From Candidatus Stahliibacteriota bacterium (GTDB lineage Bacteria; Hydrothermota; Tepidihabitantia; SM23-42): a stretch of 38,759 nucleotides of DNA. The translations under genes and the position numbers were made by a program. Positions 5,788-38,759 of this stretch are shown one piece after another; the first letter of the stretch is position 1; every line of letters starts with the position of its first letter. The DNA is taken from positions 1 to 38,759 of the forward strand of contig JAUVZL010000024.1 of NCBI GenBank assembly GCA_030602565.1, given 5' to 3'. The notes beneath the pieces were generated by a model that saw nothing but the letters and a program-made list of their open reading frames with translations, did not search any database and was not told the DNA's origin.

Positions 5788-5889
5788 ATGGGGTCAAATC
5801 TCGACCCCGATGAAAAAATTGCAGCGGTTTTTTTAAAAAACGGAGATACGGAGACAAGGAGAAAAGTGACGGCGCGGCTACGCCGCGCC
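5788..5889 (+). repeat. Partial GGGGTCA module ending in a GC-rich hairpin
   Basis: ATGGGGTCAAATCTCGAC begins the module. It continues with the shared pieces 'GATGAAAAAATTGCAGCGG' and 'CGGAGA..CGGAGACAAGGAGAAA'. It ends with GGCGCGGC, loop TAC, GCCGCGCC (5871-5889), a perfect 8-pair stem. The same pieces recur after many genes in the window. Confidence 0.75.
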
Positions 5890-14865: not shown

Positions 14866-15260
14866 ATGGGGTCAAACCTTTCTTAAGAAACCCCGTACGC
14901 TGTCGCTACGAGGGCAGGTGGAGAATGGGAGTCACGGAGTATCGGTGAAAGGGAGAGTAAATATTAGGAACTAAGAAAAGATATGGGGTGAGCCCATTTA
15001 GATAAACTCGATATCTTCGACGAGACCTTCCCTCGGTTCATTTGGGACCTATCGGTCGGCAGCAAATTCTAATTAAAAAAACCAGCTGAGATTTTAGATT
15101 TTGTCTAATGTCAAGCTGCAAGTATCGAGTCTATCGAGATGCTGCAAGTATCGCTATAGTCTCGAGTCTAACGAAGTTAGAGAGAGAAAGTATTGAGATG
15201 TCGTAGATCCTGTCGCAGATCCCGAAGTACTGAGGGGAAGAATTGAAGGGACCTGCCACC
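14866..15260 (+). repeat. Long GGGGTCA repeat, copy B (395 bases)
   Basis: This begins ATGGGGTCAAACC and ends GGGACCTGCCACC. It includes the same unusual middle as copy A ('GATATGGGGTGAGCCCATTT'). It differs from copy A at only about a dozen positions by eye. A T/A-rich stem (TTCCCTTT ... AAAGGGAA) follows at about 15262-15303. Bases 15305-15447 hold nothing that I can identify. Confidence 0.9.
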
Positions 15261-20278: not shown

Positions 20279-20400
20279 TGGGGTCAAATCTCGAAACTTG
20301 ACAAATCTTCGATGAAACGGAGCGAGGGTGAAACGGAGACACGGGGCACCAAGCAGTAAGTACTAAGCACTGTGCAGTAAGCAGTAGATAATGTAGTATC
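20279..20400 (+). repeat. Partial GGGGTCA module plus heptamer array 1
   Basis: ATGGGGTCAAATCTCGAAAC, TTGACAAATCTTCGATGAAA and the 'CGGAGACACGG' block are followed at 20352-20386 by five 7-base units: AGCAGTA, AGTACTA, AGCACTG, TGCAGTA, AGCAGTA. Confidence 0.75.
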
Positions 20401-21598: not shown

Positions 21599-21712
21599 AT
21601 GGGGTCAAATCCCCATTATACACGATAACGAGGGCAGGCAATAACGACAGATGATAGTCCGTTATATCGTAAATAACGAGACCAGGGATACTGGATGCTG
21701 GATACTAGTGGA
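21599..21712 (+). repeat. 115-base repeat, copy 1, ending in heptamer array 5
   Basis: ATGGGGTCAAATCCCCATTA, then GATAACGAGGGCAGGC, 'CGACAGATGATAGTCCGTTA', 'GTAAATAACGAGACCAGG' and three 7-base units (GGATACT, GGATGCT, GGATACT at 21686-21706). It is nearly identical to 36243-36357. The space 21499-21832 otherwise holds no gene. Confidence 0.85.
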
Positions 21713-24166: not shown

Positions 24167-24185
24167 TGAAAAACGGGGAATGAAG

Positions 24186-24231
24186 CGGGGTCAGACTATA
24201 AAGGACAGTAGAGAGTAGTGAGTAATGGGTA
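24186..24231 (+). repeat. GGGGTCA start with heptamer array 3
   Basis: GCGGGGTCAGACTATAAAG is followed at 24204-24231 by GACAGTA, GAGAGTA, GTGAGTA, ATGGGTA: four 7-base units ending in GTA. A 7-pair hairpin (CTCTTAG ... CTAAGAG, 24309-24331) lies further on, before the next gene. Confidence 0.7.
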
Positions 24232-25798: not shown

Positions 25799-25827
25799 TT
25801 GATTTTCTGGGGAAAATACGATATAAT
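25799..25827 (+). promoter_or_regulatory. Promoter of an interrupted gene start
   Basis: TTGATT (25799-25804), 17 bases, TATAAT (25822-25827), followed by AAAGGAGG and an ATG at 25859. The message then runs straight into repeat sequence. Confidence 0.65.
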
Positions 25828-25858
25828 AATAAAGATATCATTCTATAAAGGAGGATAA

Positions 25859-25939
25859 ATGAAAGGGATAGTGGAAGATATGGGGTCAAATCTCGACCCC
25901 GATGAAGTAATTGCAGATTTCATCCCATTACCTACGTAA
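25859..25939 (+). pseudogene. Gene start cut off by a GGGGTCA repeat (26 codons)
   Basis: A good promoter, AAAGGAGGATAA and ATG are followed by only seven codons of unique sequence (MKGIVED). From ATGGGGTCAAATCTCGACC the frame lies in repeat and stops at TAA 25937-25939, inside a nested hairpin. The best reading is an expressed gene whose body was replaced by repeat sequence. Confidence 0.5.
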
Positions 25940-26030
25940 CGGGACAGGCGAGGGCAGGCACTTGACAAATGCTACAAAGGAAGCAAATGGCATCACCTTG
26001 TTAAGACCTGGTGAAATGGAGACAAGGAGA
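25879..26030 (+). repeat. Partial GGGGTCA repeat with nested hairpin
   Basis: ATGGGGTCAAATCTCGACCC is followed by the hairpin CCCATTACCTACGTAACGGG with tail ACAGGC (25924-25949), then GAGGGCAGGC, 'CAAATGGCATCACC' and the 'AAATGGAGACAAGGAGAAAAG' block. Confidence 0.8.
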
Positions 26031-26052
26031 AAAGGGGATTTGAAACGGTGGT

Positions 26053-26080
26053 GAGACAGAGGACAGAAAAAGAATATAAT
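26053..26080 (+). promoter_or_regulatory. Weak promoter of the P-loop kinase gene
   Basis: GAGACA (26053-26058), 16 bases, TATAAT (26075-26080). The -10 box is perfect and the -35 box matches TTGACA at four positions. Confidence 0.5.
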
Positions 26081-26098
26081 AAAGGAATAAGGGAATAA

Positions 26099-26644
26099 AT
26101 GAAAGATTTTTTACCTATTATTCGTATTATTGGTTTACCTGGCGCTGGTAAGTCTACTTTGGCAAAGAAATTGTCTCGGAAATTGAAAATACCTATTTAT
26201 GGCATAGGTGAATATCGCGCTAAATTTCCAGTTTCTATTGTTGGCGAGGCAGATGCATGGATTGCTCTGTTTCACGACCTATCCCGACAAAAATGGAGAA
26301 ATTGTATTCTTGAAACTACTGGTTTGAATCGCAGGGAATCATTCTTGAAGGTGGTTCTACCAATGTTAAGATTAGTAACGATTAAGCTGGAAGCTCAAAG
26401 AAAGGTTCTTTACGCAAGGATTAGAAAGAAAAAGAAAAATGAACAGGGTGGTGATTGGTTGTTTAGTGCACATTACCGTGATAAATATGAATTCGTGAGA
26501 AAATTATTCAAAAAGTTCAAGAAAATACCAGCAGAAATTAAGATTGATACGCGTAAATTTGGACAGAGAGAAGTGTATAAAATTGCTTTAGAGAAGTTAA
26601 AGATGTATATAATAGAAGAGGATGTGGGGTCAAAGCTTTCCTAA
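26099..26644 (+). CDS. P-loop nucleotide kinase-like protein whose last codons come from a repeat
   Basis: This 181-residue cytoplasmic protein has Walker A GLPGAGKST (12-20), 'SRKLKIPIYGIGEYR' and 'NCILETTGLNR' (about 68-78), then a basic helical lid ('LYARIRKKKKNEQGGDW'). This resembles small adenylate/shikimate-type kinases (AAA_33-like) that phosphorylate a small molecule or nucleotide; the substrate is unknown. The last six residues (VGSKLS) and the stop are read from the GGGGTCAAAGC repeat that begins inside the gene at about 26626, so the natural C-terminus has been replaced or extended. The ribosome site is weak (AAGGGA). Confidence 0.7.
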   Translation: MKDFLPIIRIIGLPGAGKSTLAKKLSRKLKIPIYGIGEYRAKFPVSIVGEADAWIALFHDLSRQKWRNCILETTGLNRRESFLKVVLPMLRLVTIKLEAQRKVLYARIRKKKKNEQGGDWLFSAHYRDKYEFVRKLFKKFKKIPAEIKIDTRKFGQREVYKIALEKLKMYIIEEDVGSKLS

Positions 26645-26800
26645 GAAACCCCGTACGCTGTCGCTATCCCGTTACCGAGGTAACGAGGACAGGCGAGGGC
26701 ATCTCATTACATTCGATATTTTCAACATCTCAATTTATTCCCCGTAGCTACGCGACGGGGCAGGCGATATCTTCGACAGGCGGAGAATGAGTGAAACGGA
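26626..26800 (+). repeat. GGGGTCA repeat with two nested hairpins
   Basis: GTGGGGTCAAAGC and AAACCCCGTACGCTGTCGCT are followed by hairpin CCCGTTAC-CGAG-GTAACGAGG with tail ACAGGC (26668-26694), then 'GAGGGCATCTCATTACATTC'. A second hairpin, CCCGTAGC-TAC-GCGACGGG with tail GCAGGC (26741-26765), follows before 'GATATCTTCGACAGGCGG'. Compared with copy C, the second hairpin is a clean 25-base insertion. Confidence 0.85.
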
Positions 26801-27125
26801 GATGGAGAGATACGCTACGCTGAAGACATGATACTCTGAAGATACATCCGCTAAAAAGAGGGGCGGATTGAAGACACGCTGCGCTGAAGCAAAATAATAA
26901 TAAAAAGCGCCCCCAGTAGAATATGTTTCGCATTCCACGGGATAAATAGTGAGAAAAAGAACTGGGATCAAATCTTTTTTGAGTAACGGAGTCCCGGAGA
27001 AATGGTGTAACGGAGAAATGGAAACACGCTGATGCTGGAGATATGCTAAAGCTGAAGATATGTTTCACTGTGGACATGCTTCGCCGAATGCAAAAGGTAA
27101 TTAGGTTACTAGGTAATTTAGTTAT
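26801..27125 (+). repeat. Mixed short repeats, no gene
   Basis: This stretch contains GAAACGGAGATGGAGAGA pieces, repeated GCTGAAG/CTGAAGAYA words, a second GGGATCAAATC start (about 26968) and 'CGGAGAAATGG' blocks. No reading frame here looks like a gene. Confidence 0.5.
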
Positions 27126-27129
27126 TTAC

Positions 27130-27157
27130 TTGACTTCCCGTATATCAAGCATATAAT
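27130..27157 (+). promoter_or_regulatory. Promoter of the GC-rich membrane protein gene
   Basis: TTGACT (27130-27135), 16 bases, TATAAT (27152-27157), then AGAGGAGGA and ATGATG at 27183. Confidence 0.8.
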
Positions 27158-27182
27158 TCCTCAGATAAAAAGAAGAGGAGGA

Positions 27183-28451
27183 ATGATGAAGAGAGTATTA
27201 TTGCTTTGCGTACTGGTGACCCTGGTTTTTGCCCAGGAGACACTCACCAGGATAAAAATTGACCGCCCGACCCAGGGTAAACTCGCGACGCTCTTTGAAG
27301 AATTGCCCGAGCGCATCGAATTGTATCTCACTGCCGACAGCATTTACATTGTCGAAGCCACGTATGCGGACCGAAGAATGGTCGAAGAGCTGACCGCGGA
27401 TGAATACCAGACTCTGCTGAAAACGAGTCCGGCCAAGATGGTGATACTCGAGAACGCCCGTTTGCCGCATCTCATCGGCCAGACCCTGCACGGGCTCGGT
27501 CTGTATTCATGGTCTTTGCCCCTGGCACTCGGCATGGAAGACATGGGTGCAGTCACGATCGCTCTTTTCACGCCGCTCGTTTACACGTCAGCCGTTTTTT
27601 CCCTGACTTCGAGAATGCGGGTTTCCGGCGGCGCGGCACTGGGTGCGTACCTGGGAGGCATCGAGGGCGCCGTGCACGGCGGTGTGGTTTTCCAATCGGA
27701 AAAAGCCATTTTCCCGGTGAGTCTCGCTGAAAATCTGGCGGATTTCGCGCTTGGTCAGAAAATGGGTTTTACACCGGGTATGTTCCAGCGAAAATTCAAT
27801 CACTGCTTCTATGGTTATTATCACTATTTTGCCGGAAGGACCTTGGCGGTCGGCTGGGAAAACGATGATGTCTGGGAGGACAGCGACGATTTTGCGGTGA
27901 TCGGCACGGCCTTATCCGTACTCGAAGGATACACCTCGCTCTTTCTCTCGAGGCATTCAGAAAATCTTACGTACGGCGACGCCCTGTTCGAGTTGCGCAC
28001 CGCGATCATCGGTGCCGAACTAGTGCCGCTCCTCATGGCGACGTATGACCTGCACCGGGAAGAACGGAGCGACGAGCGCATCTATGCCGCAACTTCGCTT
28101 GCCGGTTACGGTCTGGGCTATTTGCTGGGCAGGAAACTCAGCCGCGACTATGACCTGTCCGGAACCGCAGGTGTTTTTACCTGGCTGATACCTTATCTTG
28201 CCCACAGCGCAACCGGCGGTCTCATAGCGCTCACGGAAAGCGAGGGTCTTGCGCGTTCGTATCCGGCCATCTTTCTTGCAATTGACCTGCCGCTTACCTA
28301 TTTCTGCTATAAGATATTTGCCGAGCGATCGACCAAGTACAGCAGCGCCGATGTGCCTAACTTCAACGTCGCAGTCAATCCCGCATATTTTTTGATCAAA
28401 GACAGGTCACAGCAGAACGTGCCCATTGTTTCAGTATCGTACCGCTTCTGA
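27183..28451 (+). CDS. Exported, probably outer-membrane-associated protein with GC-rich coding
   Basis: This 422-residue protein starts at one of two adjacent ATG codons (27183 or 27186). A signal peptide ('VLLLCVLVTLVFAQ', about 5-18) is followed by a short soluble part (20-90). Next comes a Gly/Ala-rich region with several hydrophobic segments ('LIGQTLHGLGLYSWSLPLAL', 'GAVTIALFTPLVYTSAVFSL', 'GGAALGAYLGGIEGAVHGG'), and it ends 'VPIVSVSYRF', a terminal Phe as in outer-membrane proteins. I do not recognise the family. The gene is plainly GC-richer than the rest of the window, with many GC-ending codons. That suggests a different history, such as transfer, or strong codon selection. Confidence 0.6.
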   Translation: MMKRVLLLCVLVTLVFAQETLTRIKIDRPTQGKLATLFEELPERIELYLTADSIYIVEATYADRRMVEELTADEYQTLLKTSPAKMVILENARLPHLIGQTLHGLGLYSWSLPLALGMEDMGAVTIALFTPLVYTSAVFSLTSRMRVSGGAALGAYLGGIEGAVHGGVVFQSEKAIFPVSLAENLADFALGQKMGFTPGMFQRKFNHCFYGYYHYFAGRTLAVGWENDDVWEDSDDFAVIGTALSVLEGYTSLFLSRHSENLTYGDALFELRTAIIGAELVPLLMATYDLHREERSDERIYAATSLAGYGLGYLLGRKLSRDYDLSGTAGVFTWLIPYLAHSATGGLIALTESEGLARSYPAIFLAIDLPLTYFCYKIFAERSTKYSSADVPNFNVAVNPAYFLIKDRSQQNVPIVSVSYRF

Positions 28452-28478
28452 GTAAGGGGGTGAATTCTTTTTGGACCA

Positions 28479-28657
28479 GAGGGACGGTGTCTTTCAATAC
28501 TTCAAGACTTACAGCAAGACTCTGTGTCATTTATTGTAAAAAATATATTATCCTGATATTTCACGGACTTATTTGAATTAAGGTGATTGAGGATTGATTT
28601 AAAACACAAAATCATGAATCCGCGAGGAAATTGTCATAATGTCAGGCACCGTCCCTC
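28479..28657. mobile_element. Non-coding element with 11-base inverted ends
   Basis: GAGGGACGGTG (28479-28489) and CACCGTCCCTC (28647-28657) are exact inverted copies enclosing 157 bases without a gene. The 'GGGACGGTGTCTTTCAATAC' start resembles the ends of small elements moved by IS200-like Y1 (REP-associated) transposases. No transposase gene is present, so it would depend on one elsewhere. Confidence 0.6.
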
Positions 28658-28701
28658 TTTGTGTCTCTCTTTGTCAAATTTGAACAAATGCGCCTACAAT
28701 C

Positions 28702-28729
28702 TTGACAAAATGTCCATCAGCATTATAAT
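28702..28729 (+). promoter_or_regulatory. Promoter of the Ycf48-like propeller gene
   Basis: TTGACA (28702-28707), 16 bases, TATAAT (28724-28729), then AAGGGAGG and the ATG at 28753. Confidence 0.85.
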
Positions 28730-28752
28730 TAAATGCGTAAAGGGAGGCGCTT

Positions 28753-30852
28753 ATGAAAAGAATTGTTTTCTTTATTACACTCTTGACTACGGTGTCACTT
28801 TTTGCAGGATCTTGGGAAATACAGACAGAAGCACCGTGGACAGCAAATTTCAGCGATCTTTTCTTTCTCAATGATGAAATAAACGGTTGGGTAATTGATA
28901 TTAATGGTGGCATCATTCATACCTCAGACGGCGGAGATAACTGGACAGACAGGATTCTCATCGATCCGTTATCACATTCTTCTGTTCAGTTTATAGATAT
29001 CCTCAACGGCTGGGTCACTGGTGATTCAGGCAATGTCTACAAAACAACAGATGGCGGCAATACATGGATAACAGTAAATACAGGTTTTGATTTTTATCTT
29101 CATGATCTTTCTTTTGTAAACGGCGAGAAAGGTTGGGTAGTAGGAAACCAAGGAAGTAGTTTTTCTACAACAGACAGTGGAAACACCTGGGATTATCATG
29201 CTACAGGCATAACAACCCCTGTCTACAGTACTGATTTTATAGATACACTAGAGGGCTGGGCATGCGGTATGTCAGAAAACCCGCCTGTTGACAGTGCGCC
29301 CATACTTCACACCACAGATGGTGGTTTAACATGGTCACTAACAGAGAGTGATATCTGGATGGAATTATTCAGCATATGTTTTGTCTCACAAGACTCTGGA
29401 TGGGTTGCAGGAAATAATTTTGGCGGGATGGGTGCTATCCAGAGAACGGTCGATGGTGGCATAACCTGGGAGCCTCCGATTACATTCTTTAGTTGGGTAA
29501 ATCAGGTTTTCTTTGTTGATCCTCTGTATGGTTGGTTAACCAGTGATTCTCTCTATAAAAGCATAGATGGCGGTGTCAATTGGTCATCACAATATGATCC
29601 ATTCGACCGTTTATTTTTTACCTCAAGAGATAATGGGTGGTCAATAAAGGGACCAGAGATTCTTCGAACAACAGATGGCGGGGATAACTGGGAATCACTT
29701 GGTGAAGGAACAGCAAAGACCCTTAGAAGTATTTGCTTTCCTGATATCACGCACGGTTGCACAGTTGGTGAGGATGGTGTAATCATGACAACATCCAATG
29801 GTGGTGTTGATTGGGATATCCAAACATCACCAACTCCCAATATTCTCTACGATGTTTTCTTTATTGACTCACTTAAAGGCTGGGCATCTGGATGGGATGG
29901 CATCTTTTACACCTCAGATGGTGGTTCTACCTGGGTTGACCAGAATTGCCCTGTATGGGGCATCTTCTCTGTTTTCTTCTTGGATGATCAGGAAGGATGG
30001 GGATGCTCAAACGGTGGAAGGATTGTACATACAACAAATGGTGGAGCAGATTGGACTGAGTTGACACAACCAACTACAAATGCATTATGGAGTATTCAAT
30101 TCTTTGATACAGATACAGGTTGGACAGACGGCGCCTTTGGCGGTATCTATAAAACGATAGACGGCGGCATTACTTGGGATACACTAAATTCAGGAACAAC
30201 TACACATCTAACAAACCTATATTTTGCTACTTACGATTCAGGATGGGCAATAGGAAGGGATGGACTTATTCTCTTCACGGCAGATGGTGGTGATAACTGG
30301 AACATTCAGACGAGCGGCACCACCTTTTCACTTTACGGGGTATCATTTGTGGACGCTAATGTGGGCTGGGTGGCAGGCCTAGGTGGAACAATCATTCGCA
30401 CTATTGATGGTGGGGCAAACTGGAATCCTGACTCAAGCGGTACAACAAGAAATCTCTATGGTGTTTCCTTTATAGACTCAACGCAGGGATGGGCTTGCGG
30501 TGACTGGGGAACAGTTCTCCATTATACGAGTGAAGGCGGAACGGCTGAGAAACCAAATAATGCTAGCCATTATCCTGGACTGTTAACAGTATCACCTAAT
30601 CCATTCTGCAAATCTCTACATATTCAATACAGCGTAACGTCTGCTCAAGGTCAAGTGCAATTGAAAATCTACGATGCAACAGGCAGACTAACGAAAGAAT
30701 TTCCATGCTCTACGCCCAACACCTCATGCCCAACGTTCATCATCTGGGACGGTGTGGATCACGCGGGAACTGAGGTTCCTGCAGGTGTTTACTTTATACG
30801 ACTAAAAACCGATAACAGTACTCTCGCCGAGAAAGTGCTTCTTTTGAAGTAA
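28753..30852 (+). CDS. Secreted Ycf48/BNR-like beta-propeller with T9SS-type C-terminus
   Basis: This 699-residue protein has a signal peptide (1-17, 'FFITLLTTVSLFAGS'). About twelve repeats follow of the type 'GWAVGxxGTIxxTxDGGxxW..Q.SGTT..LxxVxFxD', the Ycf48/photosynthesis-assembly-like BNR signature, probably two propellers. The C-terminal domain from about 610 has 'VSPNPFCKSLHIQY', 'LKIYDATGRLTKEF', 'IIWDGVDHAGTEVPAGVYFI'. It is presumed exported and surface-attached; the target is unknown. A strong terminator follows (30872-30907). Confidence 0.85.
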   Translation: MKRIVFFITLLTTVSLFAGSWEIQTEAPWTANFSDLFFLNDEINGWVIDINGGIIHTSDGGDNWTDRILIDPLSHSSVQFIDILNGWVTGDSGNVYKTTDGGNTWITVNTGFDFYLHDLSFVNGEKGWVVGNQGSSFSTTDSGNTWDYHATGITTPVYSTDFIDTLEGWACGMSENPPVDSAPILHTTDGGLTWSLTESDIWMELFSICFVSQDSGWVAGNNFGGMGAIQRTVDGGITWEPPITFFSWVNQVFFVDPLYGWLTSDSLYKSIDGGVNWSSQYDPFDRLFFTSRDNGWSIKGPEILRTTDGGDNWESLGEGTAKTLRSICFPDITHGCTVGEDGVIMTTSNGGVDWDIQTSPTPNILYDVFFIDSLKGWASGWDGIFYTSDGGSTWVDQNCPVWGIFSVFFLDDQEGWGCSNGGRIVHTTNGGADWTELTQPTTNALWSIQFFDTDTGWTDGAFGGIYKTIDGGITWDTLNSGTTTHLTNLYFATYDSGWAIGRDGLILFTADGGDNWNIQTSGTTFSLYGVSFVDANVGWVAGLGGTIIRTIDGGANWNPDSSGTTRNLYGVSFIDSTQGWACGDWGTVLHYTSEGGTAEKPNNASHYPGLLTVSPNPFCKSLHIQYSVTSAQGQVQLKIYDATGRLTKEFPCSTPNTSCPTFIIWDGVDHAGTEVPAGVYFIRLKTDNSTLAEKVLLLK

Positions 30853-30871
30853 GAATATACTACACAAAGAA

Positions 30872-30907
30872 AAGGGGGTAGGGAAACAAACCCTTCCCCC
30901 TTTTTTA
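30872..30907 (+). terminator. Strong intrinsic terminator
   Basis: GGGGGTAGGG (30874-30883), loop AAACAAA, CCCTTCCCCC (30891-30900), then seven T. It lies 20 bases after the stop of the Ycf48-like gene. It is the clearest terminator in the window; most other genes end in GGGGTCA repeats instead. Confidence 0.92.
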
Positions 30908-30956
30908 TTAAACCTAATGGTGCCGAGCTGTTGATAAATGTGGCAGGTTTAACAAA

Positions 30957-31360
30957 GGGGGGTCAGGCTTTTTTTGAGTAAGCCCGTACGCTGTTGCTAT
31001 CCCATTACCTACGTAACGGGACAGGCGAGGGCATCTCATTACATTCGATATTTTCAACATCTCAATTTATTCGATATCTTCGACAGGCGGAGAATGGGAG
31101 TCACGGAGTATCGGTGAAAGGGAGAGTAAAAAGACATGGCATCACCAATGAAAAAATTGCAGCGGTTTCTAATTAAAAAAAGCCAGCCGTAACTTTAAGT
31201 TTTGTCGAATGTCAAGTTGAAAATGTCGAGTCTATCGAGATGCTGCAAGTATCGCTATAGTCTCGAGTCTAACGAAGTTAGAGAGAGGAAGTATTGAGAT
31301 GTCGTAGATCCTGTCGCAGATTCCGAAGTACTGAGGGGAAGAATTGAAGGGACCTGCCAC
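30957..31360 (+). repeat. Long GGGGTCA repeat, copy C (404 bases)
   Basis: GGGGGGTCAGGC and AGCCCGTACGCTGTTGCTAT are followed by hairpin CCCATTACCTACGTAACGGG plus ACAGGC (31001-31026), 'GAGGGCATCTCATTACATTC', the CACGGAGTATCGGTGAAAGG block, 'GGCATCACCAATGAAAAAATT' and the same end as copies A, B and D (GGGACCTGCCAC). Confidence 0.9.
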
Positions 31361-31396
31361 TGATAACCAAATTGAAGATTTAGGATAATTTTGGCA

Positions 31397-31424
31397 TTGA
31401 CATTGTCACAAAATTCAGGATAAT
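31397..31424 (+). promoter_or_regulatory. Promoter of the 291-residue Kelch protein gene
   Basis: TTGACA (31397-31402), 16 bases, GATAAT (31419-31424), then AAAAGGAGGAGG and the ATG at 31445. Confidence 0.8.
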
Positions 31425-31444
31425 ATGGTAAAAGGAGGAGGTTT

Positions 31445-32320
31445 ATGATTAAAAAAATATCAGTAATGGTTGTTTTTGCATCAATGGCTCTTGCTAATAA
31501 TTGGTTCAATATGAACCCAGCTGTTCATCCCAACGCAAGACAGGATGGACATCTGGTATATGATTCTGAGAGCGATCGAGTGGTTTTATTTGGTGGACGT
31601 ACTACTAGTGGTGCATCGTATGAAACTTGGTCATACGATCTAAACAACAACATTTGGGAACAAATGAGTGATGCACCAATGGCGATGAGTTTCCATGCGC
31701 TTGTCTATGATAGTGCCTATGATAGGGTTATCGCTTTTTACGGCGGCGTGACGATGGTCTACAATTTCAACACTGATACCTGGGAAGATATGAATCCTTC
31801 TCCAGCACCAGCTGCCAATTGGGGGGCGATGATGGCTTATGATAGCGAACGAGATAGCGTTGTTCTCTACGGTGGTGATGGTGGCCCCTACGAAACCTGG
31901 GAATATGATCTAAACACAGATGCTTGGATGCAAATAACTACTGCTAATCTTCCTGGTGCCAGTGATAATGTTGGGCTAACCTATGATTCAGAAAGTAAAA
32001 GTGTGGTTCTATTTGGCGGTCAGTATTTGGCAACTTATTTTGATGAAACCTGGGTATACCCTGATTCAGAAGTTGGTATCGAAGAATATGCCAAGGTCAA
32101 AATGAGAAAGCTTACAATCTATCCAAACCCCTTTGTCAAATCATGTAAAATCCCCGAAAATCGGAGCCGGGTTGAGATATTTGATGTTTCCGGTAGATTA
32201 ATAAATAGGATATCGGGTGAAATTTGGAATGGAGAAGATATGAATGGTAACATGGTTAAGTCTGGGGTCTATTTCCTGAAAATAAAAGGTAATGGGAGGA
32301 TCAAAGTTATAAAACTTTGA
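31445..32320 (+). CDS. Secreted Kelch-type protein with T9SS-type C-terminus
   Basis: This 291-residue protein has a signal peptide (1-18, 'MVVFASMALANN'). Four Kelch-like repeats follow of the type 'LVYDSESDRVVLFGG..... YETWSYDLNNNIWEQM' (about 30-205). The C-terminal domain is 'IYPNPFVKSCKI', 'VEIFDVSGRLINRISGEIWN', 'KSGVYFLKIKG'. Four repeats are fewer than the six or seven of a complete Kelch propeller, so it may dimerise or be a shortened relative of the gene at 32651. It is probably exported. Confidence 0.8.
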   Translation: MIKKISVMVVFASMALANNWFNMNPAVHPNARQDGHLVYDSESDRVVLFGGRTTSGASYETWSYDLNNNIWEQMSDAPMAMSFHALVYDSAYDRVIAFYGGVTMVYNFNTDTWEDMNPSPAPAANWGAMMAYDSERDSVVLYGGDGGPYETWEYDLNTDAWMQITTANLPGASDNVGLTYDSESKSVVLFGGQYLATYFDETWVYPDSEVGIEEYAKVKMRKLTIYPNPFVKSCKIPENRSRVEIFDVSGRLINRISGEIWNGEDMNGNMVKSGVYFLKIKGNGRIKVIKL

Positions 32321-32343
32321 CCCTTATCAGATCCGAAATGAAA

Positions 32344-32592
32344 ATGGCGTCAAATCAATTCTAGAAAGAACCGGGGGACGGGGGCAGTCCTCGAAATTAG
32401 AAACTAAGGAAGATGGTAAACAGAGGAACACAGCGAAAGGCGTAGGGTGTCCTGGTGAAATATAATGAGATTGTCCCGCTTTGCGAGGATTCTCGTGAAA
32501 CGGAACCACACCCCGACCATTGCAATTCTTAATGGTCAGGGCTCGCAATGACAAAAAGGGATTTGGGCAACATGCCCTTTAGATCTGACCCC
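32344..32592. repeat. Degenerate element bounded by inverted GGGGTCA-like ends
   Basis: GGCGTCAAATC near 32345 and GATCTGACCCC near 32582-32592 face each other. Inside are 'GAGATTGTCCCGCTTTGCGA' (a repeat-like sequence) and the hairpin CCCGACCATT ... AATGGTCAGGG (32512-32541). No gene is visible between 32321 and the promoter at 32604. Confidence 0.5.
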
Positions 32593-32603
32593 AGTTATAC
32601 CTA

Positions 32604-32631
32604 TTGACATTTAATGGAAATGTTTTATAAT
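32604..32631 (+). promoter_or_regulatory. Promoter of the frameshifted Kelch gene
   Basis: TTGACA (32604-32609), 16 bases, TATAAT (32626-32631), then AAAGGGGGT and an ATG at 32651. Confidence 0.8.
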
Positions 32632-32650
32632 ATTTATAAAGGGGGTAAAA

Positions 32651-33860
32651 ATGCGGGTATTTATTATAATGTTGTTGTTGCCGATACTGAGTCAGGCAAT
32701 TACGTGGACAAACTAAGACACCAATACCGCAAGTTAGGTCAGGCGCTGGCTGTGCAGTGATTAATGATACTGTCTATGTAATCGGCGGTAGTGATGGATC
32801 TCTTCAAAATACGAATTATGTCTATGATCCAGTAAGTGATTCCTGGTCAACAAAAGCATCAATGCCAACTGCCCGTTCTAATATTGGTTGTGCAGTGGTG
32901 AATGGTAAGATCTACGCTATCGGTGGCTTTGTAGGTGGTGTGCAAACTGATACTAAACTTGTAGAGGAGTATGATCCAGCAACTGATACCTGGACAACAA
33001 GGGATTCCATGCCGACATCAAGGTACGCCTTTGCTATCGCTGTTGTTGCGAACAAAGTTTATGTAATCGGCGGTATGCTTCCAGTAACGGCAACAGTTGA
33101 AGAATATGACCCAGCATTAGATTCTTGGTCAACAAAAACATCAATGCCTACCGCAAGGATGGGACCAGCATGTGCTGTAATCAGAGATACGATCTATGTG
33201 TTTGCCGGTGGAACCTCACCCGGCTCAGGGGAAACTACAGTGAATGAGTGTTATGACCCGAATACCAATAACTGGGCATCAAAGGCAAATATGACTTATG
33301 CTAGGTATGCTCTTGGCGGTTTTTCTTGTGGAAATATGGCCTACGCAGTCGGTGGGCATAATTACACAGTTTATCGTAACAATGTTGAGGCCTATAACCC
33401 TGTCACTGATAATTGGTCAGACGAAACATCAATGCAGTATGCCAGGCAATCGATGGCAGTTGGTCTTGTCGGAAGCACGGTCTATGTGATTGGTGGATTT
33501 AACGGCGTAACATTGAATTATAATGAAGAGGGGATACTCACGGTCGGAATTGAGGAACAGGAAGCAGCTCAGAATATGAGAATAGATATAGGCCCAAATC
33601 CATTTTCAAAACAAATAAAAATCAGCTTTAGCAAAATAGAGAAAGCAGAAAATATAGAATTAACGATCTATGATGTCACAGGAAGACTGGTTAAGTCATT
33701 TGGTAAATTTACCAATCACCCATCATCAATTAACCAGATTGTCTGGGATGGTAGAGATGATAACGGGACTATTCTGCCAAGTGGAATCTATTTGTTCTTA
33801 ATCGACAACCAGGGGGCGAAGGAAACAAGGGTTCTGAATTTTATCCATTCCTCAATGTAA
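32651..33860 (+). pseudogene. Kelch-type secreted protein frameshifted after its signal peptide
   Basis: From ATG 32651 the frame encodes a signal peptide (MRVFIIMLLLPILSQAITWT) and stops at TAA 32714-32716. One base over, the frame continues 'KTPIPQVRSGAGCAVINDTV' without interruption to 33860. Removing one T near 32714 joins them. The long frame (367 codons from an unlikely GTG at 32757) has five to six Kelch repeats ('YVIGG', 'YDPATDTW', 'SMPTARS') and the C-terminal 'IGPNPFSKQIKISF', 'LTIYDVTGRLVKSF', 'IVWDGRDDNGTILPSGIYLF'. Promoter and ribosome site fit 32651, so the intact gene had about 402 residues. As it stands the propeller would not be exported. Confidence 0.8.
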
Positions 33861-33880
33861 TACGGGCGAATTGTGCGAAT

Positions 33881-33990
33881 TGGGGTCACCAATGAAAAAA
33901 TTGCATTCCTAAAGGAATACGATTACCCCGTACATTTGACAACTAACGGGGCATTTCAGTAAACTCAATATCTTCGACAAGCGGTAATTG
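33881..33990 (+). repeat. Partial GGGGTCA repeat
   Basis: TGGGGTCACCAATGAAAAAA with 'TTGCATTCCTAAAGGAATAC', 'TACCCCGT' and 'AACTCAATATCTTCGACAAG' pieces. CATTCCTAAAGGAATAC contains an inverted repeat (ATTCCT/AGGAAT). Confidence 0.6.
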
Positions 33991-34003
33991 AGGATAGATT
34001 TCA

Positions 34004-34672
34004 ATGATAAAGATTAATAAGTTACAAAAAATTATTGGTGCGGTTATCATAACTGCTTTGGTAGTTGCTGGAGTGATGTGTGTGTGGCATGCTTCATTGA
34101 CCAGAGCAGCTGAACAGAAACTGCATAAATCTAATGTAGAAAATGCAGAATTTGTTCAGTCCCTAAAATCGAAAGATGTGATCATTAAGGGCTTACGTGG
34201 CCGAATTGACCTGCTCGAAGATGCGCTGCTGGAATCGAAAGACCATCTGCCGGGCGATCTACTAAAAATTTATAATTATAATGGTTCAGCAGACATAGAG
34301 GGCGTTGGCTTTTGCTTAGTAGTGCCCGAAAATCACCCTGTGACTGAAAAAGTGAAGATCGTTGTAGATGTGCTCATGAAATACATGTTTAAACGAGGAA
34401 CGATCGCATTGAAAAAGATCGAGCAGCGGGGCAATAAGAAGATCGCGATCATCGAACTACAGGAGACAAAGAAAGACCCATCGGCTTGGAGAGGCATTTA
34501 TTTTCAAGGATCATGCGGAGGACATGGCACCACCTATACTCTCGTAAATACATTCCTGCAGCCTGACTATACGGGAAAATGGGTCGATGGTGTGGAATTC
34601 TATTATGAGGGCAAACCGATATCTAAAGATTGGGACCACATTTTCCTGCACGGTACAATGTACCGGAAGTGA
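34004..34672 (+). CDS. Membrane-anchored protein with GerMN-like C-terminal half
   Basis: This 222-residue protein has one N-terminal membrane helix (about 9-27, 'IIGAVIITALVVAGVMCVW'), then a coiled coil (about 35-80). The globular part has 'PVTEKVKIVVDVLMKYMFKR', 'KIAIIELQE' and 'GTTYTLVNTFLQPDYTGKWV', then 'GVEFYYEGKPI'. The order (helix, strand, a Thr/Leu-rich helix, 'V.F.Y.GKPI') resembles GerMN domains of envelope proteins, but I am not certain. It is anchored in the inner membrane with the domain outside the cytoplasm. The ribosome site is distant (GAGGAT). It is a single gene. Confidence 0.6.
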   Translation: MIKINKLQKIIGAVIITALVVAGVMCVWHASLTRAAEQKLHKSNVENAEFVQSLKSKDVIIKGLRGRIDLLEDALLESKDHLPGDLLKIYNYNGSADIEGVGFCLVVPENHPVTEKVKIVVDVLMKYMFKRGTIALKKIEQRGNKKIAIIELQETKKDPSAWRGIYFQGSCGGHGTTYTLVNTFLQPDYTGKWVDGVEFYYEGKPISKDWDHIFLHGTMYRK

Positions 34673-34696
34673 ACGGTAGACTACAAATGGGTTAGA

Positions 34697-34782
34697 TGGG
34701 GTCAAATCTCGAAACTTGACAAATTTTCGATGAAACGGAGACAAGGCGAAAGGGAGCACTGAGCAGTAAGCACTAAGCACTA
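34697..34782 (+). repeat. Partial GGGGTCA module plus heptamer array 2
   Basis: ATGGGGTCAAATCTCGAAAC, TTGACAAATTTTCGATGAAA and CGGAGACAAGG are followed at 34755-34782 by AGCACTG, AGCAGTA, AGCACTA, AGCACTA: four 7-base units running directly into the next -35 box. Confidence 0.8.
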
Positions 34783-34785
34783 CAC

Positions 34786-34813
34786 TTGACATCCTTACAA
34801 AATTCATAATAAT
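34786..34813 (+). promoter_or_regulatory. Promoter of the TPR lipoprotein gene
   Basis: TTGACA (34786-34791), 16 bases, AATAAT (34808-34813), then CGAGGAGG and the ATG at 34834. The -35 box starts 3 bases after the last heptamer. Confidence 0.7.
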
Positions 34814-34833
34814 ACCATAACGAGGAGGTAAAA

Positions 34834-35199
34834 ATGAAGCTCTTAATACCATTATTGGTCATAATTTTAATTGTTAGCAATTGTACGTCGGTAGCAAAGT
34901 CTCCTGGATAAGTTGTTGCATCAGAGAATAATTTTGAAAATGGGGTAAAGCAGTATGAGAAAGGGCATATCAAACAGGCAATCCATCAATTTGAAAAGGC
35001 CATCGAAAAAAACCCTGCTAACTTTAAAGCCTATTTCCATTTAGGTCTATGCTATAAACAGCGAGGCACAATGGAAACGGCCCATAAGCATTTTCAAAAG
35101 ACCATCGACCTTAATCCCAATGATGAATCGTGGGTCATAAAGGTAAAGGTAGAGATGGAAACTGTTGGTCCAAAAAAAGGAAAAGGAAAGCAAAAATAA
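34834..35199 (+). pseudogene. TPR lipoprotein with an in-frame stop at codon 26
   Basis: Promoter, GAGGAGG and ATG lead into a lipoprotein signal (MKLLIPLLVIILIVSNC, Cys 17 as the lipid site), then TSVAKSPG and TAA at 34909-34911. The same frame continues for 95 codons with an excellent TPR: 'NGVKQYEKGHIKQAIHQFEK', 'NPANFKAYFHLGLCYKQRG', 'AHKHFQKTIDLNPND', and a basic tail (KKGKGKQK) to TAA 35197-35199. Only one codon is wrong, so the decay is recent, the stop is read through, or it is an assembly error. There is no good internal start. Confidence 0.75.
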
Positions 35200-35216
35200 A
35201 TTTTCTAAGGAACGAA

Positions 35217-35269
35217 TGGGGTCAAACCATGAAGGACAGTAATGTGTAAGGCGTAATGTGTAGTGAGAA
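35217..35269 (+). repeat. GGGGTCA start with heptamer array 4
   Basis: ATGGGGTCAAACCATGAAG is followed at 35235-35262 by GACAGTA, ATGTGTA, AGGCGTA, ATGTGTA: four 7-base units ending in GTA. A fifth, GTGAGAA, is degenerate. Confidence 0.7.
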
Positions 35270-35362
35270 GAACAACTGGGATCGCCAATGAAGAAATTAT
35301 TCCTTGCGGAATTCGATGGCAGTGATAAAAGGGCAGATTACAATGATGGATCGTGAACAGAA

Positions 35363-35464
35363 GGGGGTCAGGTCTTGCAATATCACAAGAAAGTGGGCGT
35401 ATAATATCACCCTTGGCAGCAATTGGATTTGCATCGTGATGTTTGATTGCAAGATCTGACCCCC
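35363..35464. mobile_element. 102-base palindromic element with GGGGGTCAG ends
   Basis: GGGGGTCAGGTCTTGCAAT (35363-35381) is matched, with one difference, by the inverted ATTGCAAGATCTGACCCCC at 35446-35464. ATCAC and GTGAT are also paired just inside. The middle carries 'AAAGTGGGCG' and 'TATCACCCTTGGCAGC'. This is the form of the REP-type hairpins mobilised by Y1 (IS200-like/REP-associated) transposases. It also shows that the GGGGTCA start of the other repeats is one end of such a palindrome. Confidence 0.75.
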
Positions 35465-35519
35465 TTCGTCGTTCCTGTTTAATATGAATTAACCCATATT
35501 TATATAGTTACGTCGTTAC

Positions 35520-35547
35520 TTGACAGCTGTTAATCTTATGTTATATT
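35520..35547 (+). promoter_or_regulatory. Promoter of the 212-residue protein gene
   Basis: TTGACA (35520-35525), 16 bases, TATATT (35542-35547), then AAAGGAGGT and ATGATG at 35575. Confidence 0.8.
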
Positions 35548-35574
35548 TGTACTTAATCAGAAAGGAGGTATTAA

Positions 35575-36213
35575 ATGATGTATTTATTGCATCTTACCTC
35601 AACTGTCGAATTTTTTCGACTACAGAAGGATGGAACTTGGAGAAAATGTAAGTATCAAAGTAAAATGGAACCTAATGATTTTTCAACCAACGATCCAACT
35701 GTAATAATTTCAAAACAGATTGAGAACGTCGCTCAAGAAATTAATAATAAATCTTATATTATTAAACCTGAGAAAGGAATGCTCCTAACAAAAGATGATC
35801 AATTATTTTATGCAGCAAGGGTATTAAGAAAGGATTTCCCCCCTATTCCAGCAATTGAAAGATTGAAAGATGTTATTCGTGGTGGTGATGATAAACACAT
35901 AAATGTTTTAATCATTGATGTAAATGGGGATTTTAAGCTGAAACAAGCTCCTCCGTCTGATTTCACAATTAAAGATCCGACTGTGTGTGTAAGACACGAA
36001 GCATTTGCAGCGGGAAATGATTATGTTGGGAAAAACGCTGCCGAGAGTGCTAGTCTGATTAATTCTCTATACCGCGATATGTTGGAACGTTGGGTAACTC
36101 ACCTTAGAACGGGAAAAGTAGATATTTTTGTTGATTATTCTGCGAGGAAAGGCACTGAAGCAATATTAGAAGAACTCAAGGAGATGAAGAAAAATTGGCA
36201 AAGTCAATACTAG
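35575..36213 (+). CDS. Soluble protein of unknown family
   Basis: This 212-residue protein has no signal peptide or membrane segment. The start has the best ribosome site in the region (AAAGGAGGT). Visible features are an N-terminal strand 'MMYLLHLTSTVEFFRLQKDG', a middle 'LFYAARVLRKDFPPIPAIER', 'HINVLIIDVNGDFKLKQAPP', 'TVCVRHEAFAAGNDYVGKNA' and a helical C-terminus ending 'TEAILEELKEMKKNWQS'. The mixed alpha/beta pattern and the 'IDVNGDF' strand suggest an enzyme-like or sensor fold. I do not recognise the family. It is a single gene, flanked by repeats. Confidence 0.6.
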   Translation: MMYLLHLTSTVEFFRLQKDGTWRKCKYQSKMEPNDFSTNDPTVIISKQIENVAQEINNKSYIIKPEKGMLLTKDDQLFYAARVLRKDFPPIPAIERLKDVIRGGDDKHINVLIIDVNGDFKLKQAPPSDFTIKDPTVCVRHEAFAAGNDYVGKNAAESASLINSLYRDMLERWVTHLRTGKVDIFVDYSARKGTEAILEELKEMKKNWQSQY

Positions 36214-36242
36214 TTATTACCTATTCTGAATAGTTAATAAAA

Positions 36243-36357
36243 CGTGGGATCAAATCCCCATTATACACGATAACGAAGGCAGGGCAATAACGACAGATGA
36301 TAGTCCGTTATATCGTAAATAACGAGACCAGGGATACTGGATACTGGATGCTAGTGG
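36243..36357 (+). repeat. 115-base repeat, copy 2, ending in heptamer array 6
   Basis: GGGATCAAATCCCCATTATA, then GATAACGAAGGCAGGG, 'CGACAGATGATAGTCCGTTA', 'GTAAATAACGAGACCAGG' and GGATACT, GGATACT, GGATGCT at 36332-36352. It differs from copy 1 (21599-21712) at very few bases. The order of the heptamers differs between the copies. Confidence 0.85.
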
Positions 36358-36510
36358 AAAAAATGGCATTACCCTGTGTACATTTGGAGAAACGGAGACA
36401 CGGAGAAAGAGAGAAGCAGTTGCTTCGCAGATGAAAAAATCGCAGCGGTTTCAAATAAAAAAAACCAGCCGAGACTTTAGATTTTGGAACAAATGGGGTC
36501 AAATCTTTAC
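36358..36510 (+). repeat. Partial GGGGTCA repeat blocks
   Basis: GAAACGGAGACACGGAGAAA, 'TTGCTTCGCAGATGAAAAAA', 'GCAGCGGTTTCAAATAAAAA', 'CCAGCCGAGACTTTAGATTT' and a further ATGGGGTCAAATC. These are the blocks of the long copies, with other deletions. Bases 36510-36590 hold nothing that I can identify. Confidence 0.7.
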
Positions 36511-36590
36511 ATTATACAATTCATCCAATGGCATAATGAGAATAGGTATAGAAGATAGAAGAGAACTAAATCAGGCGTGAAGGATACTGA

Positions 36591-36619
36591 TTGACAAATC
36601 TTTATATAATTCATATCAT
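36591..36619 (+). promoter_or_regulatory. Promoter of the broken carboxypeptidase-like domain gene
   Basis: TTGACA (36591-36596), 17 bases, TATCAT (36614-36619), followed by TGGAGG and the ATG at 36634. A perfect TATAAT at 36605 is too close to serve with this -35 box. Confidence 0.6.
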
Positions 36620-36633
36620 TATCTGGAGGTTAT

Positions 36634-37512
36634 ATGATATCAGGTAAAAAATCTGTATTAATAATATGTACAGGCATCATAGTGAGCATCGGACTGAACA
36701 ATGCTCAGATCTACAGTGACATCAAAAAAAAGGATATATGTCATGTACCAATAAAACTCGATATACCTGAAATTGAAGTACCGGCGTTTCAGTGGACTGT
36801 TCTTGATTATGATCCAGTACCTGATTTCAGTGAGCGTGTTCTAGAACACATCGTGAGCTGGTATCCAGCTCAGATGGAAGCGATGAGTGATCCGGACAAA
36901 CGCCTTACGCTTCGTAATACGGTAATTGAAGGTACGTGGGCAGATGGATTTCAATACATTCCGGGCAATGAAGTGTATCTTTATATAGAAGCGCCGGACG
37001 AGAAAAACTGGTAATGCAGTGGTTGGTTGCTTCGTTGGAGATGGAAAATTTTGGGGTGCAGTGAGTGACTCTATGGGTAATTATATTTTGACTCTACATC
37101 AACGTGGTTACCATATACTGCACACGTATCACCTTTATTATGAAGCAGTATCTTTAAGTGTATTTGTGCAGGAAGGTGAAATTCTCTGTAAGAATTTCAT
37201 TATGGAACCATTGAGTTGTATTGATGGCGAATATGAGATTATCACTGGGCGGGTAATTGATAGTAGGAACGATTTGCCTATAATTGCTGTTGATGTAACT
37301 GCTGCTCCGGATGTCTCTGGTACGCTGCTTGGTGTATCAACAAGGAGCAACGGCGGGTATGTGATATTAATGTACCACCTGGTATCTATACGTGCACTGC
37401 GGTGTATGTGGCGTATGATGAGCAAGTAAAATCAGGTATAACCGTAAGGCCAAATGAAATTACAATCGTTGACTTCAACCTGAAACCAATGGAAATAAAA
37501 GTCAGTGAATGA
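36634..37512 (+). pseudogene. Secreted protein with carboxypeptidase-regulatory-like domains, two frameshifts
   Basis: The first frame (36634-37014) has a signal peptide ('VLIICTGIIVSIGLNNAQ', about 8-25) and an unrecognised region, then stops after 'EAPDEKNW'. One base over, the frame is in domain again: 'KTGNAVVGCFVGDGKFWGAV', 'SDSMGNYILTL', 'MEPLSCIDGEYEIITGRVID', 'LGVSTRSNGGYV', two carboxypeptidase-regulatory-like beta-sandwiches. Near 37365 the original frame resumes: 'DINVPPGIYTCTAVYVAYDE', 'VRPNEITIVDFNLKP', stop 37510-37512. One extra A in the A5 run at about 37003 and one missing G near 37362 explain both. The intact length is exactly 293 codons including the stop. Confidence 0.75.
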
Positions 37513-37532
37513 ACTCAGAAGCCGTACAAGAT

Positions 37533-38040
37533 ATGGGGTCAAACCTTTCCTTCGAATCGGAGACTTGGTGAAACGGGGACACGGAGAAATGACTGCTTCG
37601 CAGGTGAAAAAATTGTACTTCGATGAACTCAGTACAGGCTCAAAAAATTGCCTCTCATTGTATTCCTCTCACTTCATTTCGAGATCTACGACATCTCATT
37701 ACACTCGATACTTTCAGCGAGACCTTCCCTCGGTTCATTCGGGACCTATCGGTCGGCAGCGGTTTCTAATTAAAAAAACCAGCCGAGATTTTAGATTTTG
37801 TCGGATGTCAAGTTGTAAATATCGAAGCATTGAGATGCTGAAAGTGTCGAGTCTATCGAGATATTGTAAATATCGCTATAGTCTCGAGTCTAACGAAGTT
37901 AGAGAGAGGAAGTATTGAGATGCTGCAAGTATCGCTATAGTCTCGAGTCTAACGAAGTTAGAAAGAGGAAGTATTGAGATGTCGTAGATCCTGTCGCAGA
38001 TCCCGAAGTACTGAGGGGAAGAATTGAAGGGACCTGCCAC
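37533..38040 (+). repeat. Long GGGGTCA repeat, copy D (508 bases) with internal duplication
   Basis: This starts ATGGGGTCAAACC and contains the CGGGGACACGGAGAAATGAC, 'GATGAACTCAGTACAGGCTC', GAGACCTTCCCTCGGTTCAT and 'CCAGCCGAGATTTTAGATTT' blocks. It ends with the common GGGACCTGCCAC. The CGCTATAGTCTCGAGTCTAA block with its flank (about 63 bases) is present twice in tandem (about 37858-37920 and 37921-37983), which accounts for part of the extra length. An inverted GATCTGACCCC lies beyond, at 38132-38142. Confidence 0.9.
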
Positions 38041-38179
38041 TTTTTCTCTTTTTCTCAAGAATTCATGGAGATGAGAAAGCAAAAAAAAGCCAAGATTGCG
38101 GAGAAAATTAAAAACTCAGTTTCTAATTCCGAGATCTGACCCCGCATGGCCCCTCTCAACTTTAATTGTTCTGGTAATC

Positions 38180-38207
38180 TTGACAATCAGGCGAATATTA
38201 TTATAAT
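38180..38207 (+). promoter_or_regulatory. Promoter of the last, truncated gene
   Basis: TTGACA (38180-38185), 16 bases, TATAAT (38202-38207), then AGAGGT and an ATG at 38224. Confidence 0.85.
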
Positions 38208-38223
38208 ATAAAAAGAGGTAAAT

Positions 38224-38759
38224 ATGACAGGATTATTATTTATATCGTGTTTTGTAAATATTGTTCTTGGTGGATTAAAAAATGATATTAATAATTACCA
38301 AGAAGATTATGCAACACACGATTGTGGCAATTGCAAATTATCTGTTACCCGATATGGAGCAATAGGTTATATGACACCCAATCAGCAGTTTGGTGATGGA
38401 TTCTGTTATCCAATTTCAAGTCCCAGTCATCTGTTTTATGGTGGTTTTGCCGTTGGCAAAGCTGCTAATTATCTAGTTGATCGGTTAGATGACTTTGATT
38501 GGACAACTACTCCCAATGGAATGGTTGTGATGTATGAACCTGGTCCATTTAGCGATGAGTATGCAACTGCAGCCTATAGTGATTCTGGTCATCTGACACC
38601 AAAGGGACTCATTATTGCACAATATTCAATTGCCTGGAGTGCATCTACAGCTAACGATTTTGTAATTATGAGGTTTATTATGCATAATGCCGGAAATGAA
38701 TCTATTAATAACATATATGCCGCAGTCTTTATGGACTTTGATTTTTCCGGTGGTTCGAG
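38224..38759 (+). CDS. Secreted protein, truncated by the window end
   Basis: An open frame of 178 codons runs off the right edge. The N-terminus (MTGLLFISCFVNIVLGG) is a short hydrophobic stretch, plausible as a signal peptide. The body is rich in Gly, Asn, Tyr and Asp ('SVTRYGAIGYMTPNQQFGDG', 'PSHLFYGGFAVGKAANYLVD', 'NAGNESINNIYAAVFMDFDF'), like the large secreted proteins of this lineage that carry a C-terminal sorting domain. That end is not visible here. 'FVIMRFIMHNAGNESI' is the kind of strand seen before Ig-like domains. No family is assigned. Confidence 0.7.
   Translation, partial: MTGLLFISCFVNIVLGGLKNDINNYQEDYATHDCGNCKLSVTRYGAIGYMTPNQQFGDGFCYPISSPSHLFYGGFAVGKAANYLVDRLDDFDWTTTPNGMVVMYEPGPFSDEYATAAYSDSGHLTPKGLIIAQYSIAWSASTANDFVIMRFIMHNAGNESINNIYAAVFMDFDFSGGS

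Follow-up and report, generated by a model that had tools for sequence, protein, structure and literature searches.

Elements in which a Y1 transposase gene lies between terminal inverted repeats of the form GGGGWSAS are known as TIRtrons, and their transposases (TIRYTs) often have a DnaA-like tail; families of these repeats are moderately abundant in some genomes, some of them as dimers (Di Nocera 2013, PMC3733652, in the part of the text available to us). Subclass 2.1, whose members have DnaA-like or HTH tails, takes in 20 of the 26 published TIRYTs, and in the available part of the survey that classified them no REP-like sequences are reported in the vicinity of its genes (Quentin 2018, PMC6006769). 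According to the same partial text, REP sequences of the GTAG type follow the rule that a GTAG or GTGG tetranucleotide lies 0-2 nt 5' of each hairpin, and the IS200/IS605 family, with IS608 and ISDra2, has an HUH/Y1 core and transposases that bind subterminal hairpins (PMC6006769). MITEs are described, in the available text of PMC3733652, as gene-less sequences of 70-300 bp with inverted ends of 15-30 bp.

We analysed a stretch of 38,759 nucleotides from a Candidatus Stahliibacteriota bacterium (contig JAUVZL010000024.1), referred to here as the window, which contains a short palindromic element with the following parts:

35360..35381, + strand: left terminal inverted repeat GAAGGGGGTCAGGTCTTGCAAT, from the inverted-repeat search
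35364..35463, no strand assigned: miniature element of 100 bp, running from GGGG to CCCC, with no gene seen and a single-hairpin fold
35446..35467, - strand: right terminal inverted repeat, reading inward GGGGTCAGATCTTGCAATCAAACATCAC, 25 of 28 nt matching the left end of L238, a TIRYT locus in another genome

The two arms, which read GAAGGGGGTCAGRTCTTGCAAT, are 22 nt long, complementary at 21 of 22 positions (95%) and separated by a spacer of 64 nt. The inverted repeat reaches 4 nt beyond the GGGG and CCCC (GAAG/CTTC), and the base immediately outside the GGGG is a G on both sides rather than a T. As single-stranded DNA, the 108-nt palindrome has a folding energy of -25.8 kcal/mol, compared with -11.3 on average for shuffled sequences (z -6.2), and none of 200 shuffles was as good. 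A pattern search for GGGGTCAG and CTGACCCC at a spacing of 30-60 nt gave no match, the spacing of the window element being larger.

The window element looks like a miniature, gene-less transposon with paired GGGGTCAG ends, of a kind that is known but little studied. It is very probably a non-autonomous, MITE- or REPIN-like derivative of a TIRYT element, for which we propose mobilisation in trans, and the observations that support this reading are the presence of full elements, of short elements with the same ends, of a deletion series at one site and of six copies of a 101-bp element. REPIN/RAYT systems, as Bertels and Rainey reportedly described them in 2011, consist of inverted units in pairs, each pair folding into a single hairpin of about 100 nt, and are presumed to be mobilised by a Y1 enzyme in trans. 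The window element resembles a REPIN in that its inverted pair forms one hairpin of about 100 nt and is non-autonomous, but the system to which it belongs is without GTAG-tagged REP units and has full transposon-like elements of the same end type. With the IS200/IS605 family, whose members make no target duplication, the present elements share the HUH/Y1 catalytic core and the lack of a target duplication, whereas they differ in having terminal inverted repeats of 18-26 nt. In length, in the size of the inverted ends and in the lack of a gene the short elements agree with the bacterial MITEs, but the likely parent transposase here is of the Y1/HUH type.

The closest likeness is to the TIRtrons as presented in the available part of PMC3733652, with which the elements share a Y1 gene framed by long GGGGWSAS inverted repeats and the moderate abundance of these repeats. 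Unlike what is described there, several element types coexist in one genome, and two features go beyond that description: the ends of full elements recur on miniatures, and a deletion series is seen at one orthologous site. The subclass 2.1 proteins, in the available part of PMC6006769, have the same Y1 core, C-terminal Bac_DnaA_C/HTH region and Y---N tyrosine context, although here, unlike there, short elements with the same ends are found elsewhere in the genome.

A profile search of the genome that contains the window (G000) gave 13 matches to Y1_Tnp (PF01797), four of which are long genes, with open frames of 318-341 codons counted from stop to stop, flanked by inverted ends. These full elements are 1005-1067 bp in length, and the ends of three are of the RGGGTCA type and those of one divergent:

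C43 element, 1018 bp: ends AGGGTCAGGTCTTGAAATTTAAGATT, 26 nt exact, with the motif AGGGTCAG
C6 element, about 1052 bp: ends GGGGTCAAATCTCGAAAC, 19 nt exact, with GGGGTCA
C82 element, 1067 bp: ends GGGGTCAAATCTCTACAT, 18 nt exact, with GGGGTCA
C94 element, 1005 bp: ends AAGGTGGCAGGTCTTGACATTCTACA, 26 nt exact, divergent and reading AAGGTGGCAGGTCT

All four of the framed proteins have the Y1_Tnp domain, and H59, H61, Y118 and N122 are invariant among them, so that both the HUH and the class-2 Y---N motifs are present. C-terminal similarity to Bac_DnaA_C was seen in three (E values of 4e-6, 2e-4 and 2e-4, all below Pfam's cut-off), and the domain search found none in the C82 protein (L005). An exact-11-nt search found no long inverted ends at a further long frame of 315 codons (L004) or at five short frames (149-240 codons); L006, L008 and L012 are partial Y1 copies. 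We considered L012 as a clean one-ended insertion into a Y1 gene and rejected it: homology never resumes past the one-ended unit, and the locus therefore looks like a truncation. An earlier note on this DNA had placed both ends of the palindrome at 35363-35464, which is correct to within 3 nt, and had assigned it to an IS200-like or REP-associated Y1 transposase. The link to Y1 holds, and a Y1 gene framed by such ends is indeed present in the same genome, but the class has to be changed, to the TIRYT branch rather than the GTAG-tagged REPs.

The exact end of the window element is found on transposase loci elsewhere. Its 18-mer GGGGTCAGGTCTTGCAAT occurs without mismatch at one or both ends of TIRYT loci in a Desulfobacteraceae genome (L213), a Bipolaricaulota genome (L238) and a Methylotenera genome (L239), where these ends lie on elements of 912-928 bp; to go by its ends (GTCTTGCAAT), the window copy is similar to this type. 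The 18-mer is also exact at four places in G010, a genome of the same family, one of them within a facing pair of 100 bp. In G000 itself we did not find an intact TIRYT gene with GTCTTGCAAT ends, and the best TIRYT end there agrees with GGGGTCAGGTCTTGCAAT at 16 of 18 positions, i.e. with two mismatches; the window copy may therefore be an immobile relic or may rely on a related transposase. The gene adjoining the element on its downstream side is present in one of 40 relatives searched (G001), and the sequence upstream of it there is different.

Among the stretches fetched from G000 there are 27 facing pairs of ends, comprising three full elements, one doubtful pair spanning 609 bp in the window and 23 short elements with lengths of 38-395 bp, among them L051, whose ends are unlike. 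A 101-bp element is present at six places (L045, L048, L065, L078, L083 and L090; 87-97% identical to L045), and three further copies were read in the congeners G002 and G003. One of these, L243 in G003, occupies the position of L048 (95% over 2374 bp, element included); L247, also in G003, has the left flank of L078 (95% over 1306 bp) and not the right; and the flanks of L244 in G002 are common to none of the six G000 copies. Another element, L092, has a counterpart (L143) at the same place in G003, and together with L048/L243 this indicates that the spread is in part old. Another gene is preceded by the 101-bp element in G000 and by an element of about 92 bp with other ends in G003, and the sequence further upstream of this site is not common to the two. 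We also considered G001 as an empty site at the L090 locus, and rejected it as the sequence preceding the element's place belongs to something else. From the copies and the orthologous sites we infer that the elements have probably been mobile.

Several of the short elements can be tied to a full element of the same genome. Both ends of L058 (94 bp) are near-identical to those of the C82 element, and L086 (96 bp) and L092 (113 bp) carry the C43 end sequence on both sides, so that all three are short, gene-less and equipped with the ends of an autonomous element in the same genome, as befits a MITE; for the window copy, the exact end is known from TIRYT loci of other genomes. A T lies just outside the motif at 43 of 50 ends in G000 and at 39 of 96 ends (50 loci) at the TIRYT loci of other genomes. 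Target duplications are at chance level (2 nt, three seen and 3.9 expected; 3 nt, two and 1.8; 4-9 nt, none), in a count of flanks and duplications over 25 of the 27 facing pairs, those whose ends match.

A single orthologous junction was found in several states. In G000, the full C43 element is located at the 3' end of a gene that, from its sequence motifs, we take to encode a UvrD/PcrA-like helicase, and the last codons and stop codon of this gene are supplied by the inverted repeat of the element (L003 1881-1906). In G002 and G001 the outer parts of the C43 element are kept and its middle is missing, leaving forms of 150 bp and 82 bp, respectively, as counted by hand from the alignment. The form in G005, which is of a different genus, is decayed; in G003, AGGGTCAGGTCTTG alone remains, followed by other repeat sequence, with no downstream flank in the stretch read; and in G009, of another genus, the helicase gene has its own stop codon and there is no element. 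Supply of the stop codon by the element end may be the reason that remnants persist at this site, and the one-ended form in G003, compared with the two-ended forms of its congeners, suggests that loss of one side occurs.

The parent in the scheme that we propose would be a TIRYT element with a Y1 (HUH) transposase gene, about 0.9-1.1 kb, and inverted ends beginning RGGGTCARRTCT. In single-stranded DNA, for example at a replication fork, the two ends would pair into one hairpin, which a TIRYT supplied in trans would bind at its ends, perhaps through the DnaA-like C-terminal domain. The tyrosine would then nick one strand next to the GGGG at both ends, and the hairpin would be pasted elsewhere, in G000 usually after a T, without target duplication. 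Miniatures would be the product of internal deletion of the gene, and one-ended copies that of loss or exchange of one side.

Ends of this kind frame related genes well beyond the lineage. A search with the four framed proteins gave at least 80 loci in named genomes, the first in a candidate division WOR-3 bacterium, and 76 of the 80 were used in the analysis of flanks, the other four having flanks that were too short. A flanking inverted repeat with a score of at least 14 was found at 57 of the 76 loci, as against two of 228 shuffled controls, and at 19 there was none of that score; GGGWSA was present in both arms at 53 of the 76, and GGGGWSA at 36. End sequence and protein relatedness are weakly correlated (Mantel r 0.21, with 21 of 5000 permutations as high) across 52 of the 80 loci, among which two ends were mis-picked (L165 and L206). 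Since their ends are identical, L201 and L202 are not independent. The genomes are mostly drafts; the searches covered whole genomes and our reading covered stretches of them. We also note that at L209 (Parcubacteria, VMGY01000012.1, 1441-3386) a stretch of about 1.95 kb containing a Y1 gene, double the usual element length, seems to be enclosed by window-like ends.

The TIRYT literature, in the parts that we examined, contains no demonstration that these elements move as units. The terms REPIN, RAYT, IS200, tyrosine and single-strand are absent from the main text of PMC10969869, a 2024 review of MITEs in prokaryotes, the available part of a 2021 paper on TnpA-REP (PMC8266576) has none of TIR or DnaA, and a literature search for four 12-nt end strings returned matches that, judged by title, were all on other subjects. 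We regard the kind of element as known (TIRYT) and this member as new, with evidence on mobility and on the origin of miniatures that is better than in the parts of the literature examined. The lineage offers natural evidence for movement as units, in the form of unrelated flanks, a deletion series and an element-free relative, and suggests a simple origin for TIRYT miniatures; its elements are also concrete substrates for testing what a DnaA-tailed Y1 transposase recognises.

The end motif is far more frequent than the complete element. GGGGTCA occurs 24 times in the window, where 2.96 are expected and the largest count in 100 shuffles was seven, and 21 of these are on the + strand and three on the - strand. 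Sites in the window other than those of the element are:

5790..5801, + strand: one-ended GGGGTCAAATCT copy, 59 nt past a stop codon
7028..7034, + strand: one-ended GGGGTCA copy, 44 nt past a stop codon
9439..9461, + strand: GGGGTCA pair, 16 nt apart, 22 and 38 nt past a stop codon
10933..10944, + strand: one-ended copy, 9 nt past a stop codon, with an end common to congener G001
14868..14879, + strand: one-ended copy, 40 nt past a stop codon
16416..16427, + strand: one-ended copy, 15 nt past a stop codon
19737..19743, + strand: GGGGTCA site; homology to G003 begins 2 nt upstream of it
20280..20291, + strand: one-ended copy GGGGTCAAATCTCGAAACTTGACAA; the C6 Y1 element (L001) has this sequence as its right end
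21601..21607, + strand: one-ended copy of the GGGGTCAAATCCCC family
24187..24193, + strand: one-ended GGGGTCA copy, 20 nt past a stop codon
25882..25893, + strand: one-ended copy
26626..26637, + strand: one-ended copy, overlapping the last codons of a gene
30959..30965, + strand: one-ended GGGGTCA copy
32581..32592, - strand: inverted (right) end; a degenerate left end may sit near 32379 (an arm of inverted repeat I4)
33882..33888, + strand: GGGGTCA site directly past a gene
34698..34709, + strand: one-ended copy with the end sequence of the C6 element
35218..35224, + strand: GGGGTCA site about 140 nt upstream of the complete element
36495..36506, + strand: one-ended copy
37535..38143, no strand assigned: possible two-ended composite of 609 bp, left GGGGTCAAACCT, right GGGGTCAGATCT

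Because the ends at 37535 and 38143 are unlike beyond the general motif, their pairing may be due to chance. Homology to G003 sets in at about 38140, where the right end of this pair has its outer edge. In the whole of G000 (2.74 Mb, 104 contigs), GGGGTCARRNCT occurs 122 times, against two occurrences of a reversed control pattern. Among the 100 listed of these 122, adjacent sites at most 400 bp apart comprise 21 facing pairs, none back to back, three with both on the + strand and two with both on the - strand; the genome thus has many complete palindromic forms, and by comparison one-ended copies are unusually numerous in the window. The earlier note's statement that the other sites keep the left end only is therefore broadly right within the window and wrong genome-wide, and the inverted partners that it gave at 32582-32592 and 38132-38142 are there, as the - strand sites, beside the right end of the element itself, that end at 32592 and 38143.

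One-ended GGGGTCA copies could also arise by true one-ended transposition, with a fixed left end and a variable right one, rather than by decay, a reading that we hold to be rather unlikely. In the GGGGTCAAATCCCC family, five of seven further copies begin 1-7 nt before GGGRTCA in differing surroundings, the sixth begins at a degenerate GGGTTA and the seventh 28 nt inside, and the right edges are variable (query position 79, or 139-152), as one-ended transposition would have it; a second family, however, has a similar left edge in two of five further copies, and the helicase site in G003, one-ended where two congeners are two-ended, points to loss of one side. A left edge fairly fixed at or just before TGGGR, with a variable right edge, fits decay as well as one-ended transposition. 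Where a gene edge lies within about 110 nt, 30 of 34 solitary ends and 18 of 29 paired ends point away from the gene's 3' end (p 0.02), but with the window's solitary rows removed the comparison becomes 16 of 19 with 18 of 29 (p 0.12), and the gene calls behind these counts are mechanical. At all distances, in the sampled stretches, 38 of the 52 solitary sites that could be classified follow a gene and point away from its 3' end (median distance past the stop codon, 39 nt), as against 24 of 47 paired ends (p 0.04), and the solitary count without the window's rows is 22 of 35 (p 0.37). Having lost support in this way, the orientation bias is not established beyond the window. The suggestion in the earlier note that the repeat system grew from broken or one-ended events fits both the G003 form and the family with the fixed left edge, neither of which distinguishes breakage from one-ended transposition.

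It is improbable that the palindrome is an immobile transcription terminator or RNA-processing hairpin that is kept for a function in RNA. Its position is intergenic, its RNA fold is strong (108 nt, z -7.1, with none of 200 shuffles as good) and many one-ended copies lie close behind stop codons; yet full transposase elements bear the same kind of ends, two-ended sites are indifferent to gene direction (24 same, 23 opposite) and, by eye, there is no T-run directly past 35463.

Gene order between congeners appears shuffled almost gene by gene, with genes that are 76-97% identical in nucleotides, as seen when window positions 18800-38759 are compared with L026 (G001:C322), L126 (G003:C56), L131, L132 and L134, all in draft assemblies. 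The starting point of several homologous blocks is a TTGACA (-35-like) box or ATGGGGTCA, and the end point of several lies 5-35 nt short of a GGGGTCA-like site in at least one of the two genomes.

Nearly all genes in the window point one way, and this, together with the shuffled gene order, led us to consider integron-like cassettes; G000 has seven tyrosine-recombinase matches. We give very little credence to the idea that a T followed by GGGGTCA acts as a breakpoint, with a Y1 transposase excising and re-inserting single genes, cassette-like, between two directly repeated ends on one strand. If true, it would explain why single genes are found in differing neighbourhoods in congeners and why block edges fall at or just before GGGGTCA. 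Between window positions 19735-20270 and G003, one block has its first nucleotide precisely at ATGGGGTCA and its last at the following site of this kind or no more than 10 nt from it.

It is very unlikely that the window element is a classical GTAG-type REP or REPIN moved by a RAYT: two inverted units within 100 bp, intergenic and associated with Y1, are REPIN-like, the long proteins match REP_Tyr_transpos best among the NCBIfam models (below cut-off, at 41-66 against 80 bits) and the three short Y1 proteins tested (L002, L007 and L011) exceed that cut-off, but the arms of the palindrome have no GTAG or GTGG tag, for which reason we rejected membership, the short Y1 proteins have no long inverted repeat around them in the exact-11-nt search, and the proteins of the framed genes show the extended C-terminal region of subclass 2.1, for which the available part of PMC6006769 reports no REPs nearby.

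Many GGGGTCA ends are followed by intergenic mosaics of other repeats (beginning CGGAGACACGGAGAAA, TTCGCAGATGAAAAAATTGCAGCGG or CGAGTCTATCGAGATG), located in the window at 7027-7431, 14867-15271, 31084-31372, 36360-36467 and 37533-38052. The window gene at 32757-33860 contains repeats spaced 135-147 nt apart, which by eye we take to be kelch-like in the protein, and encodes a putative sorting-domain-like C-terminus. A further family of palindromic repeats, whose ends resemble GGGACGGTGCATGACATTATGAC, is present at 28594-28662 in the window, at about 2000-2110 of the reverse complement of L026 and at 367-480 of L006. In G001, the gene orthologous to that at 35575 has one GGGACGGTGCATGACATTATGAC-type copy upstream of it, in the place where the window has the GGGGTCAG element.
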